From positions 1 to 29,999 of the IMG/VR virus record IMGVR_UViG_3300031217_000010: DNA of 29,999 nucleotides. One strand, given 5' to 3'. This document shows, piece after piece, positions 18,397 to 25,235 of this stretch (position 1 is its first letter; each line of letters starts with the position of its first letter). This DNA comes from a virus. Both the position numbers and the translations under genes were made by a program. The notes beneath the pieces were generated by a model that saw only the letters and a list, made by a program, of their open reading frames with translations, was not told the origin of the DNA and made no database searches.

Positions 18397-18416
18397 GGAT
18401 AGTATAGGTTTAGCCC

Positions 18417-18500
18417 ATGGGAGGGCTTAGAGAAAGGATGAGAGCTTCTGGGGGAGGAGTTAGTAATGGAGACTACGTTTACAATAAAATTAGACCATGA
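18417..18500 (+). CDS. possible 27-aa peptide overlapping the next gene
   Basis: Frame MGGLRERMRASGGGVSNGDY then VYNKIRP, from ATG 18417 (an internal ATG at 18438 is also in frame). The composition looks protein-like, but no ribosome site precedes either start and the 44-aa gene reads across it in another frame. Could be a truncated gene end. Confidence 0.2.
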   Translation: MGGLRERMRASGGGVSNGDYVYNKIRP

Positions 18501-18600
18501 AGGGTTTTTTATTGCAAGAAATGTGACAGTTATGTCACCCCCTACAAGATTAACCGAAGAACAATTAATGGAGCTAAACGTTGACGTTGTATATATTTAA
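18466..18600 (+). CDS. 44-aa hypothetical early protein
   Basis: ATG with GGAGGAG about 7 nt upstream, one of the strongest ribosome sites here. Sequence METTFTIKLDHEGFFIARNV then SPPTRLTEEQLMELNVDVVYI; a compact alpha/beta-type peptide. The same frame continues open after the stop (see the debris region), which suggests it may be the surviving front of a longer gene. Confidence 0.5.
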   Translation: METTFTIKLDHEGFFIARNVTVMSPPTRLTEEQLMELNVDVVYI

Positions 18601-18857
18601 TACTATAAGACAAGCGATCTACCAAAAATGCTTCCTGAATGTTCCAAGCTAAGTTTAAACGGAACTAAAGATTACAAAGTACACACGCTAACCCAGAGAA
18701 CCGATCGTCTTAGAGGGTGTAGGTTTTATTTGTCGATTGTTTTTGGTTTAATGAAACGTGCGAAGAAATAATCCGTATCACCAAAAGGGACACTAAAGTT
18801 CAAGCTATTGATTGTTGGTCTGGAGAATGGGGTGATGTGTGTAACATACAGTATTAA
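18601..18857 (+). pseudogene. gene debris with an internal frame change
   Basis: Directly after the TAA of the 44-aa gene, the same frame is open to 18769 (YYKTSDLPKMLPECSKLSLN, then GTKDYKVHTLTQ). From about 18723 a second frame takes over with no start codon: VDCFWFNETCEEIIRITKR then VQAIDCWSGEWGDVCNIQY, ending at 18857. Both segments look like real protein, with acidic and aromatic residues, while neither has its own start or ribosome site. One premature stop plus one frameshift would join them with the 44-aa gene. A decayed gene is my reading; a chance frame is possible. Confidence 0.35.
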
Positions 18858-18915
18858 GTCTAGGTAAGTATATATATTGTTAGAGAGTCTCCTATAAATC
18901 ACCCAACCCAAATGT

Positions 18916-18937
18916 CCCTCACCCCCCACCACCCCCC
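18916..18937 (-). other. G-quadruplex-prone tract
   Basis: Plus strand CCC-TCA-CCCCCC-ACCA-CCCCCC; the minus strand therefore has runs of six, two, six and three Gs separated by short linkers, a potential G-quadruplex. It directly abuts the first palindromic repeat at 18938. Such an extreme tract is out of character for this AT-rich genome. Confidence 0.6.
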
Positions 18938-18973
18938 TTGGCATGGAACTTGCAGATGCAATAAACGTGCCAG
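18938..18973. repeat. concentric palindrome, unit 1
   Basis: 36 bp: TTGGCA, 6 nt, TTGCA-GA-TGCAA, 6 nt, TGCCAG. Outer and inner arms share exactly the same centre (18955.5). Nested dyads with fixed spacing suggest binding by a dimer of a two-contact DNA-binding protein. Members at 18982 and 19051 keep the layout. Confidence 0.8.
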
Positions 18974-18981
18974 TGTTCTAG

Positions 18982-19017
18982 CTGGCATGGAACTTGCAGT
19001 AGCAATAATTGTACCAG
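18982..19017. repeat. concentric palindrome, unit 2
   Basis: 36 bp: CTGGCA, 6 nt, TTGC-AGTA-GCAA, 6 nt, TACCAG. Same centre for both dyads (18999.5), 44 bp from unit 1. The left half TGGCATGGAACTTGCAG is identical to unit 1; the right half has diverged a little. Confidence 0.75.
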
Positions 19018-19050
19018 AGCTACCCCTTGCAAGTAACGGACCAAGAAGAC

Positions 19051-19086
19051 TTGGCAACCTACTTGCAGATGCAATAGTTGTGCCAA
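19051..19086. repeat. concentric palindrome, unit 3 (most symmetric)
   Basis: 36 bp: TTGGCA, 6 nt, TTGCA-GA-TGCAA, 6 nt, TGCCAA, with perfect outer and inner arms and one centre (19068.5). It lies 69 bp from unit 2; between them is a short palindrome CTTGCAAG (19026-19033) that may be a decayed copy. Seventeen bases after it comes the first of two TTGACA boxes. Confidence 0.8.
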
Positions 19087-19092
19087 CCTTCT

Positions 19093-19108
19093 AAGATAGT
19101 TCTTGACA
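19093..19108 (+). promoter_or_regulatory. repeated -35-like element, copy 1
   Basis: AAGATAGTTCTTGACA (16 bp) occurs here and again at 19133-19148, exactly 40 bp apart. Each ends in a perfect TTGACA but no good -10 box lies 16-18 nt downstream. With palindromic sites just upstream, these could be activator-dependent promoters. Confidence 0.4.
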
Positions 19109-19132
19109 CATAATAGTTTGATTACCCAAACA

Positions 19133-19148
19133 AAGATAGTTCTTGACA
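19133..19148 (+). promoter_or_regulatory. repeated -35-like element, copy 2
   Basis: Exact copy of 19093-19108. TTGACA at 19143-19148; the region at -10 distance (GATCTA) is poor and is overlapped by a half-site TGCAA-N6-TGCCA at 19161-19176. Confidence 0.4.
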
Positions 19149-19160
19149 AACCTTTTAGTA

Positions 19161-19176
19161 TGCAAGATCTATGCCA
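19161..19176. promoter_or_regulatory. right half-site of the concentric palindrome
   Basis: TGCAA-GATCTA-TGCCA: spacing of 6 nt equals the right half of the full units. It covers the place where the -10 box of the second TTGACA would lie. Confidence 0.4.
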
Positions 19177-19249
19177 TTAATACCTTGTCAAGTGTTAATA
19201 TTCTGACACCCATTGTATAAACATTTTACATATCTATCAGGATAACAGA

Positions 19250-19330
19250 ATGACCGCTCTAAGCTATCCTAACGTTACCCCTAGTCAGTACATGGAAAGT
19301 TATTTTAAATGGATTCTAGAGGTAATCTGA
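19250..19330 (+). CDS. possible 26-aa peptide
   Basis: ATG with AGGA 8 nt upstream, sequence MTALSYPNVTPSQYMESYFK then WILEVI. A weak promoter (TATAAA at 19216-19221) lies upstream. It sits alone in an otherwise gene-free stretch (18858-19469), so it may be chance or a leader peptide. Confidence 0.25.
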   Translation: MTALSYPNVTPSQYMESYFKWILEVI

Positions 19331-19359
19331 GCTGCCACAGATTGTTGGTATTAGGTCTA

Positions 19360-19375
19360 TGGCATGTTTCTTGCA
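19360..19375. promoter_or_regulatory. left half-site of the concentric palindrome
   Basis: TGGCA-TGTTTC-TTGCA, with the same 6-nt gap and the same TGGCATG start as units 1 and 2. It lies 32 bp upstream of the -35 box of the promoter at 19408-19435, a typical activator distance. Confidence 0.4.
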
Positions 19376-19393
19376 ATACCTTCTTATAGTGTA

Positions 19394-19435
19394 TATAAAA
19401 ATAGTGCTTGTAATAAATGACACATGGTGTATACT
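19394..19435 (+). promoter_or_regulatory. early promoter with ACAC-N3-GTGT dyad (40-bp repeat copy 1)
   Basis: TTGTAA (19408-19413), 16 nt, TATACT (19430-19435). Dyad ACAC-ATG-GTGT at 19420-19430 ends on the first T of the -10 box. Bases 19394-19433 recur exactly at 19729-19768. It drives the gene at 19470. Confidence 0.7.
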
Positions 19436-19469
19436 GGTTATATAGAAATAAACAACAAAGGAATTAAAT

Positions 19470-19733
19470 ATGACTAAGTGTCCAAGTATTTTAACTCACC
19501 TATTAAGCGTTTATAAATCAGCCAATGATGAGGGAGCTGCTTACAGAACATTAAAGGCTTGTGTATTCACTAATAATCAGCCAGTCAATATAGTGTCAGC
19601 GATGACGGCGATTAGAGACATTCAATGTATGATTAGATTAGATAGGTGTCATGCTGTAGAATTAGAGTATTGTATCAGATACTTTTCAGAAGTAACGGCA
19701 TATAGTGCGATTGAAATAAATCAGCGATTATAA
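19470..19733 (+). CDS. hypothetical early protein
   Basis: 87 aa, ATG with AAAGGA about 8 nt upstream. MTKCPSILTHLLSVYKSAND, helical throughout, with AMTAIRDIQCMIRLDRCHAV and four Cys scattered without a zinc pattern. First gene of a cassette with its own dyad promoter; its stop codon lies inside the next promoter repeat. No family recognised. Confidence 0.65.
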   Translation: MTKCPSILTHLLSVYKSANDEGAAYRTLKACVFTNNQPVNIVSAMTAIRDIQCMIRLDRCHAVELEYCIRYFSEVTAYSAIEINQRL

Positions 19734-19770
19734 AAATAGTGCTTGTAATAAATGACACATGGTGTATAAT
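19729..19770 (+). promoter_or_regulatory. early promoter with ACAC-N3-GTGT dyad (40-bp repeat copy 2)
   Basis: TTGTAA (19743-19748), 16 nt, TATAAT (19765-19770). Dyad ACAC-ATG-GTGT at 19755-19765 shares its last T with the -10 box. It begins 2 nt before the stop codon of the preceding gene, and 40 bp are identical to the previous promoter. Confidence 0.75.
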
Positions 19771-19801
19771 GAAGTATAGAAACAAACAACAAAGGGAACT
19801 T

Positions 19802-20068
19802 ATGAACTTAGACACTACACTTATAGAAAATTTAGAGCTGATAGACAAAAAGAGAGTAGGTCAGGAATTTGAAATGATTTCAAAGCATGGTAACGCATAC
19901 AGGTTTAGTCTTATTTTTAATAGTCGTGGTAACTATGGCTATATAATTGAAAGGCAAAACGGAATTACAGGAAAATACCATTTTGAAACTTCTAGCGGAT
20001 ACCTAACAAGTAGGTCTCACCTATATCAATGCGTGGAGTCTCAAGTATTTTACCACTATGAACTTTAA
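19802..20068 (+). CDS. hypothetical early protein
   Basis: 88 aa from the ATG at 19802 (AAAGGG 6 nt upstream). A longer in-frame start at 19739 would begin inside the promoter, so it is rejected. Mixed alpha/beta, with EMISKHGNAYRFSLIFNSRG and YGYIIERQNGITGKYHFETS reading as antiparallel beta strands. No known motif. Confidence 0.65.
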   Translation: MNLDTTLIENLELIDKKRVGQEFEMISKHGNAYRFSLIFNSRGNYGYIIERQNGITGKYHFETSSGYLTSRSHLYQCVESQVFYHYEL

Positions 20069-20071
20069 TAC

Positions 20072-20099
20072 TTTTTAATTATGACACATGGTGTATAAT
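20072..20099 (+). promoter_or_regulatory. early promoter with ACAC-N3-GTGT dyad
   Basis: TATAAT at 20094-20099, with a weak -35 (TTTTTA, 20072-20077) at 16 nt. Dyad ACAC-ATG-GTGT at 20084-20094 shares the -10 T, as in the two preceding promoters. Confidence 0.6.
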
Positions 20100-20140
20100 G
20101 AGCTGATTTACTAGAGTGTAACAAAGATAGGGGGTAACTA

Positions 20141-20451: not shown

Positions 20452-20465
20452 GGTTAAAATAGTTA

Positions 20466-20494
20466 TTGACAAACAGTGGCACTTGTGCATACAG
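20466..20494 (+). promoter_or_regulatory. early-type promoter
   Basis: TTGACA (20466-20471), 17 nt, ATACAG (20489-20494) as a weak -10. It carries the upstream module AAAATAGTTATTGAC also seen at 22022 and 22730. GCAC-TT-GTGC lies in the spacer in place of the usual ACAC-N3-GTGT dyad. No gene follows closely. Confidence 0.4.
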
Positions 20495-22787: not shown

Positions 22788-23258
22788 GTGAACTACAAAA
22801 GAAAAGACATTGATCTAGCTTATAGTAATATTAGAACTATTATTGATAAGCTCATGATACGATATCAGGTTAATTTTAAGCCCTCTAGTAATGCTCCTAG
22901 TACTTACAAGGCTATGCGCTCTAAAAGAGACGAGAACGGCTATTTCGTTGTTTACAACGGTGGTGATCATGGACTACTAGGTGAGGACTATAATATTAAG
23001 TTTAGAGCCCTACATGACTTTATGCATTACAAGCATAATTTAAGTTTTAAATTTGAAGATGAAAGAAAATTGTCCGATATAACAATGATAACTTTTAGTG
23101 AAATGGCATGGGGTGAACTAAACATTACAGCTTGGCAGACTCATTGCATTCGACAAGTTATAGATAGGGAAATAAGAGGACAAATTGATTATTTTGAAAC
23201 AAGAGGTCACTATGTACCTAATCAAAGTGTGTTTATTTTAGACCACTTCAACTTATAA
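22788..23258 (+). CDS. hypothetical phage protein with HD-type motif, GTG start
   Basis: 156 aa, GTG with GGGAG about 6 nt upstream. It holds the motif FRALHDFMHYKHNLSFKFED, where R-x-x-HD-x-x-H-x-K is a pattern found in uncharacterised phage proteins and could bind a metal. Later regions (MAWGELNITAWQTHCIRQVI) are helical. Role unknown; the HD/H cluster makes a hydrolase or ligand-binding function possible but unproven. Confidence 0.65.
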   Translation: MNYKRKDIDLAYSNIRTIIDKLMIRYQVNFKPSSNAPSTYKAMRSKRDENGYFVVYNGGDHGLLGEDYNIKFRALHDFMHYKHNLSFKFEDERKLSDITMITFSEMAWGELNITAWQTHCIRQVIDREIRGQIDYFETRGHYVPNQSVFILDHFNL

Positions 23259-24824: not shown

Positions 24825-25235
24825 ATGCGTCAAGTTGTATTTACAGAATTTTTTATCTTTTCAGCACATAAAAAGGGACTCTCGGTAAACGAGAATCATA
24901 AGAGGTCTAGAGAGCTTTGGAATGTTTTAACAGATTTAGGTGTCAACTTTGTTAACGTGGGAGGATGTTATAAAGACGATAAACAACAATCAATTATGTT
25001 ACTAGACGGGAATGAGGAAACTGTAAAAGAGCTATGCGGCTTATATGATCAAGAAAGCTACTTGCATAGAAGTGCGGATAACTCCGTTTTACTTAAAATG
25101 TTAGAAGGGGAAATTATAGAGTTAGGAGAACCATTGGTAATAACTCAAAATGAACTAAACGATTTTGAAAGTTACACAATTTTACCTCAAAAAAATGGCA
25201 CTAATCTGTATTTTACTTTTAAAAAGGTACAATAA
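24825..25235 (+). CDS. hypothetical protein, tentative DUF3293-like
   Basis: 136 aa, ATG with AGGAG 7 nt upstream, 10 nt after the pentapeptide gene. The segment SAHKKGLSVNENHKRSRELW, then LGVNFVNVGGCYKDD and QSIMLLDGNEETV, follows the order N..L..L..G-x-Y..E/Q-S-x-L of DUF3293-type small proteins. The C-terminus is beta-rich. No catalytic residues seen. It is the last gene of its cassette. Confidence 0.55.
   Translation: MRQVVFTEFFIFSAHKKGLSVNENHKRSRELWNVLTDLGVNFVNVGGCYKDDKQQSIMLLDGNEETVKELCGLYDQESYLHRSADNSVLLKMLEGEIIELGEPLVITQNELNDFESYTILPQKNGTNLYFTFKKVQ

Follow-up and report, generated by a model that had tools for sequence, protein, structure and literature searches.

The window analysed here, a stretch of 29,999 bases taken as a whole, carries leftward genes for terminase, portal, head and tail proteins, and its rightward genes include rIIA/rIIB-like ones. 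The array under study lies in a control region (18601–19469) flanked by co-directional, rightward genes: one ends near 18600, a boundary set by a 44-aa ORF ending at 18600 that was read by eye, and the next starts at 19470. No convincing gene was found in 18601–19469, in agreement with the original prediction of a gene-free location.

Just downstream of the array there is a sigma-70-like early promoter, TTGTAA-16-TATACT, on the plus strand (19408–19435), which is repeated at 19743–19770. It is the nearest such promoter to the array and points away from it. Three similar early promoter blocks (ATGACACATGGTGTATAATG with upstream bases) are located at 19394–19436, 19729–19771 and 20058–20100, each before one of successive small rightward genes, and an ACAC-N3-GTGT dyad between their −35 and −10 elements may be an operator. 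Further downstream, an early gene (24825–25235) resembles S-adenosylmethionine lyase (PF23780) and by this resemblance is likely to encode an anti-restriction protein. Rfam gave no match in the window. Near and distant DNA searches found no relative of the window region, or of the other array contigs, among named phages, and a terminase query gave nothing beyond this phage itself and a single partial relative, whose sequence stops short of the array.

The palindromes were scored against TTGGCA-N6-TTGCA-N2-TGCAA-N6-TGCCAA. The unit at 18938–18973 had one mismatch and that at 19051–19086 had none, and the full pattern did not occur in 100 shuffles of the window. Both units consist of two half-sites face to face on opposite strands. 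The first has its plus half at 18938–18954 (TTGGCATGGAACTTGCA) and its minus half at 18973–18957 (CTGGCACGTTTATTGCA), with a centre gap of 2 bp; the exact one has its plus half at 19051–19067 (TTGGCAACCTACTTGCA) and its minus half at 19086–19070 (TTGGCACAACTATTGCA). The unit between them (18982–19017) retains an intact left half on the plus strand (18982–18998, CTGGCATGGAACTTGCA), while its right half, CTGGTACAATTATTGCT on the minus strand, is decayed to AGCAA / TACCAG but keeps GG and GC. With this degenerate half (4 mismatches in 22 by reading), the middle unit is the remnant of a palindrome and does not count as a third complete one. Thus, of the three nested 36-bp palindromes originally described, the two outer ones stand; the fixed 6-nt gap between arms is real.

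The palindromes had been seen, but three single half-sites were overlooked: TTGGTCCGTTACTTGCA at 19028–19044 (minus strand, 2 mismatches), ATGGCATAGATCTTGCA at 19161–19177 (minus strand, core exact) and ATGGCATGTTTCTTGCA at 19359–19375 (plus strand, core exact). Since they accompany the palindromes, the half-site is the real repeating unit. Seven exact half-sites, TGGCA-N6-TTGCA, lie in 18400–19470 (about 1.07 kb), where 1,000 dinucleotide shuffles gave a mean of 0.003 and a maximum of 1; the array is therefore far beyond chance, as had been proposed. Only one further exact half-site was present in the rest of the window, at 23133, within an ORF.

Directly after the array, an exact 16-bp direct repeat, AAGATAGTTCTTGACA, occurs at 19093–19108 and 19133–19148 with 40-bp spacing, and a similar copy is found at 20456–20474. 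No good −10 box follows this repeat, which may be the binding site of another factor.

Identity of the half-site and its likely reader

The −24/−12 core of sigma-54 (RpoN) promoters has the consensus TGGCAC-N5-TTGCW. A published version is TGGCAC-N5-7-TTGCT (PMC12316311). Sequence comparison strongly supports TTGGCA-N6-TTGCA as a −24/−12 core that would be read by host sigma-54 RNA polymerase. Palindromes with an N2 centre and arm spacing of (6,6) were represented by 38 distinct sequences, while all other combinations of spacings from 2 to 12 together gave 13. The window array has the strict sigma-54 spacing, with TGGCA and TTGC(A/T) 6 nt apart. Spacer bases that had been left out of the search also agree: position −21 was C/T in 97% of the phage sites and −20 was G/A in about 94%, as compared with 28 of 29 and 29 of 29, respectively, in intergenic Salmonella sigma-54 ChIP sites (sites from PMC3844500). 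In the window, six of the seven exact half-sites have the −21 pyrimidine and the −20 purine, the exception being 19051–19067. By core, spacing and these preferences, the half-site corresponds to the sigma-54 −24/−12 element, an identity that was missed in the original description.

Across phages, lone half-sites occurred besides tandem, head-to-head and back-to-back ones, a range of arrangements that would be expected if recognition is of the half-site. Among the matches listed, centre gaps of 2–5 bp were favoured and almost none had 0, 1 or 7 bp; this preference persisted among them when each family was counted once, the duplicate filter for families being run with the motif masked. The variable centre gap argues against a single rigid dimer. 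An array of specific protein-binding sites, as first proposed, is supported at the level of sequence, but the two-contact dimer operator or iterons suggested with it are disfavoured by lone, tandem and back-to-back half-sites and the variable gap. Helical phasing of site spacing was dropped as a proof, being suggestive for back-to-back pairs only.

No sigma-54 DNA-binding domain was found in any of 35 array-bearing phage records, many of them fragments, while the same search was positive in 4 of 14 control genomes. No convincing sigma-54 activator was identified in the 35 records either; the AAA+ domain gave just two matches, both weak and partial. The reader of the phage sites is presumably host sigma-54, the simplest choice because the sampled phage records yielded neither a sigma-54 nor a convincing activator.

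Distribution and orientation of the sites

The exact 34-bp palindromic pair was present in 43 viral contigs, including Pakpunavirus isolates such as PAK_P1, whereas a composition-matched control palindrome was found in none; the array thus recurs in other phages. The exact pair is also carried by many uncultivated phages, whose GC content runs from 34 to 59%, and a half-site identical over this range makes a phage-specific initiator or repressor unlikely. In 257 Gb of prokaryote genomes, the exact pair occurred in just one small contig. In the draft genome (4.7 Mb) to which this contig belongs, 5 of the 21 half-sites are concentrated on it, and perhaps it is a phage contig. In 50 phage records, the half-site outnumbered its reversed pattern by 299 to 5, a ratio inflated by the choice of these records as site carriers. 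Arrays at contig ends were excluded as partly assembly breaks at repeats (G015 and G063). At least five exact tandem copies of TGGCATGAACCTTGCA with 26-bp spacing reach both contig ends in G015 (L032; 8–127 and 56981–57271), which suggests that tandem duplication enlarges sigma-54 arrays and that such arrays interrupt assemblies.

The Pakpunavirus palindrome lies within a 0.6-kb gene-free stretch ahead of a SprT-like gene. Only about 120–140 bp of this stretch, the palindrome included, still aligns in Pseudomonas phages that are less closely related (Kassivere, Roomu-2, UAVern and SYP). One common flank is GTCAACA, which in the opposite sense forms the −35 end of a sigma-70-like promoter directed leftward; the other is a GC-rich block. 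This block of about 70 bp (L335 1957–2045; 55.84–55.93 kb in PAK_P4) is strongly conserved in Kassivere, UAVern and SYP. RNA structure in the conserved Pakpunavirus flank was weak, with few informative pairs, and Rfam returned nothing credible in PAK_P4.

PAK_P4 has nine clear sigma-54 sites, three near 55.7–55.9 kb and six at 67.5–68.5 kb. All nine fall within, or at the border of, two RNAs annotated as antisense on the basis of RNA-seq: as16 (55650–55850, minus strand), which starts inside the palindrome, and as17 (67500–68700), which spans the second cluster. This overlap hints at transcription at both clusters, without indicating which promoter is used. The second cluster (NC_022986, 67500–68700) also overlaps an annotated HNH gene and, to judge from record offsets, may in phage K8 be close to where the genome physically ends. 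GC skew was rejected as an origin signal in PAK_P4, as it tracks gene direction.

Our analysis showed differences between the phage sites and ordinary sigma-54 promoters. Of the 29 intergenic Salmonella sites, 28 have the direction of their gene (28:1), whereas unpaired phage sites between co-directional genes were oriented with the gene direction in 36 cases and against it in 27 (Fisher p = 6e-5). Once background and the two seed sites of each family had been removed, 178 of 422 phage array sites (42%) were perfect at the ten core positions, versus 2 of 29 (7%) in Salmonella (p = 6e-5). At −11, the ratio of A to T was 633:145 in the phage sites (the TGCA form) versus 14:13 in Salmonella. It has been reported that transcription without activation increases when the TGCA at −12 is altered, and that in E. 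coli sigma-70 promoters are repressed by closed complexes of sigma-54, the −12 C being kept in all repressive sites (PMC4551910).

Counted by family, and with ORF calling and family clustering done by simple heuristics, the clusters had 40 divergent, 4 convergent and 31 co-directional flanks. Either site orientation faces a gene in a divergent region, so strand order there was set aside as uninformative. Sigma-70-like promoters within 400 bp of clusters faced away in 64 cases and toward them in 6, which places the arrays behind early promoters.

Possible roles of the array

Our preferred reading, held tentatively, is that the array provides high-affinity and mostly silent docking (decoy) sites for host sigma-54 polymerase. 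Each palindrome half is by sequence a complete −24/−12 core, and a head-to-head pair of cores would make one 34–36 bp site able to catch the polymerase in either orientation. The bound polymerase would stay as a silent closed complex, as expected from the strict TGCA form of the −12 element and from related phages without a clear sigma-54 activator. The array would stand behind outward-firing sigma-70-type early promoters, and as phage DNA multiplies, sigma-54 polymerase would be drawn off host stress and nitrogen promoters. The benefit might be a reduced host sigma-54 output, the phage-shock response included, or a local reserve or block near the early promoters. Binding, silence and a gain from titration are what we infer from the sequences. 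Some observations weigh against such a role. Where only 2 bp separate two head-to-head cores, probably just one of them can hold a polymerase at a time, which would waste capacity in a sponge, and a single palindrome, as in some relatives (Kassivere), is too few for good titration. Besides, the strong preference for divergent regions (40 versus 4 convergent) equally suits promoters, and both PAK_P4 clusters overlap the antisense RNAs annotated from RNA-seq.

The main rival is a bidirectional sigma-54 promoter hub, whose cores would be fired by a host enhancer-binding protein with transcripts running both ways from a divergent control region; we consider it possible but rather doubtful, and the same doubt applies to its consequence, that phage gene expression would be tied to the stress or nitrogen state of the host. 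Perfect sigma-54 cores are what such promoters would have, and at the points of divergence where clusters concentrate (again 40 to 4) a core in either orientation would give a sense transcript. The conservation of the palindrome with about 100 bp of flank among distant Pseudomonas phages also fits, as do the start of as16 inside the PAK_P4 palindrome and the span of as17 over the second cluster. However, the conserved leftward sigma-70-like promoter beside the Pseudomonas-phage palindrome can account for as16, co-directional regions had no significant orientation preference (36:27, against 28:1 in Salmonella), the sites overlap densely or stand in tandem at about 26 bp, and the 35 phage records contained no clear activator.

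Sigma-54 polymerase parked on the array might instead act as a local gate, repressing or timing the adjacent sigma-70 early promoters by occlusion. Outward sigma-70-like promoters are indeed nearby, a conserved TTGAC/TAnnnT promoter (read by eye) abuts the palindrome in Pakpunavirus-type phages, and E. coli sigma-54 represses overlapping sigma-70 promoters (PMC4551910). But most of the sigma-70-like promoters lie 100–400 bp off, beyond simple occlusion, which makes this role unlikely. We regard it as very improbable that the array is an operator or a set of iterons for a repressor or replication initiator made by the phage itself. The appeal of this idea comes from the position of the clusters in gene-poor control regions and from dense repeats that look iteron-like; yet one identical half-site is shared by many unrelated phages, its spacer preferences match sigma-54, and the half-sites occur singly, in three relative orientations and with variable centre gaps rather than in a fixed geometry. 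GC skew in PAK_P4 likewise gave no origin signal. Returning to docking sites, it is conceivable, if still less than probable, that many virulent phages use orientation-free, consensus-strength sigma-54 arrays as DNA decoys or parking sites, and so would blunt the phage-shock, nitrogen and possibly defence responses of the host.

Comparison with known systems

To our knowledge, phage biology seldom considers host sigma-54. The recognition element itself is textbook, whereas its clustering in face-to-face pairs in phages, the near absence of this layout from bacterial genomes and the unclear orientation appear undescribed: a search of mainly open-access papers turned up no account of elements like these in phages. 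The same arrangement in many unrelated phages, almost absent from bacterial genomes, suggests a shared phage way to engage host sigma-54 polymerase. A palindromic sigma-54 element that recurs in phages with no phage sigma-54 alongside speaks for an interaction with the host stress polymerase that is common among phages, and it might account for some of the control they exert over host transcription. If the decoy role is true, these arrays would be a DNA-based counter-measure without earlier description.

The phage sites share the core, spacing and −21/−20 preferences of the Salmonella ChIP sites. Unlike sigma-54 core promoters, they are placed head to head with 2–5 bp between −12 elements, are clustered and nearer to consensus, and have no clear gene orientation. 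The PAK_P4/Pakpunavirus control region (NC_022986, 55.6–55.9 kb) is similar to that of the window: both have the palindromic sigma-54 pair where genes are lacking, ahead of early genes. PAK_P4, however, has one palindrome, a second cluster at 67.5–68.5 kb and a conserved GC-rich flank that was not seen in the window. With the intergenic E. coli sigma-54 sites that repress sigma-70 promoters (PMC4551910), the phage sites have in common the −12 C, the nearness of sigma-70 promoters and, presumably, a silent closed complex; they differ in forming arrays, usually without overlap of a sigma-70-like promoter. Host sigma-54 polymerase is already known as a phage target, since protein P7 of phage Xp10 inhibits it (PMC5053324). 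P7, however, is a protein, whereas the array would act as a DNA element.
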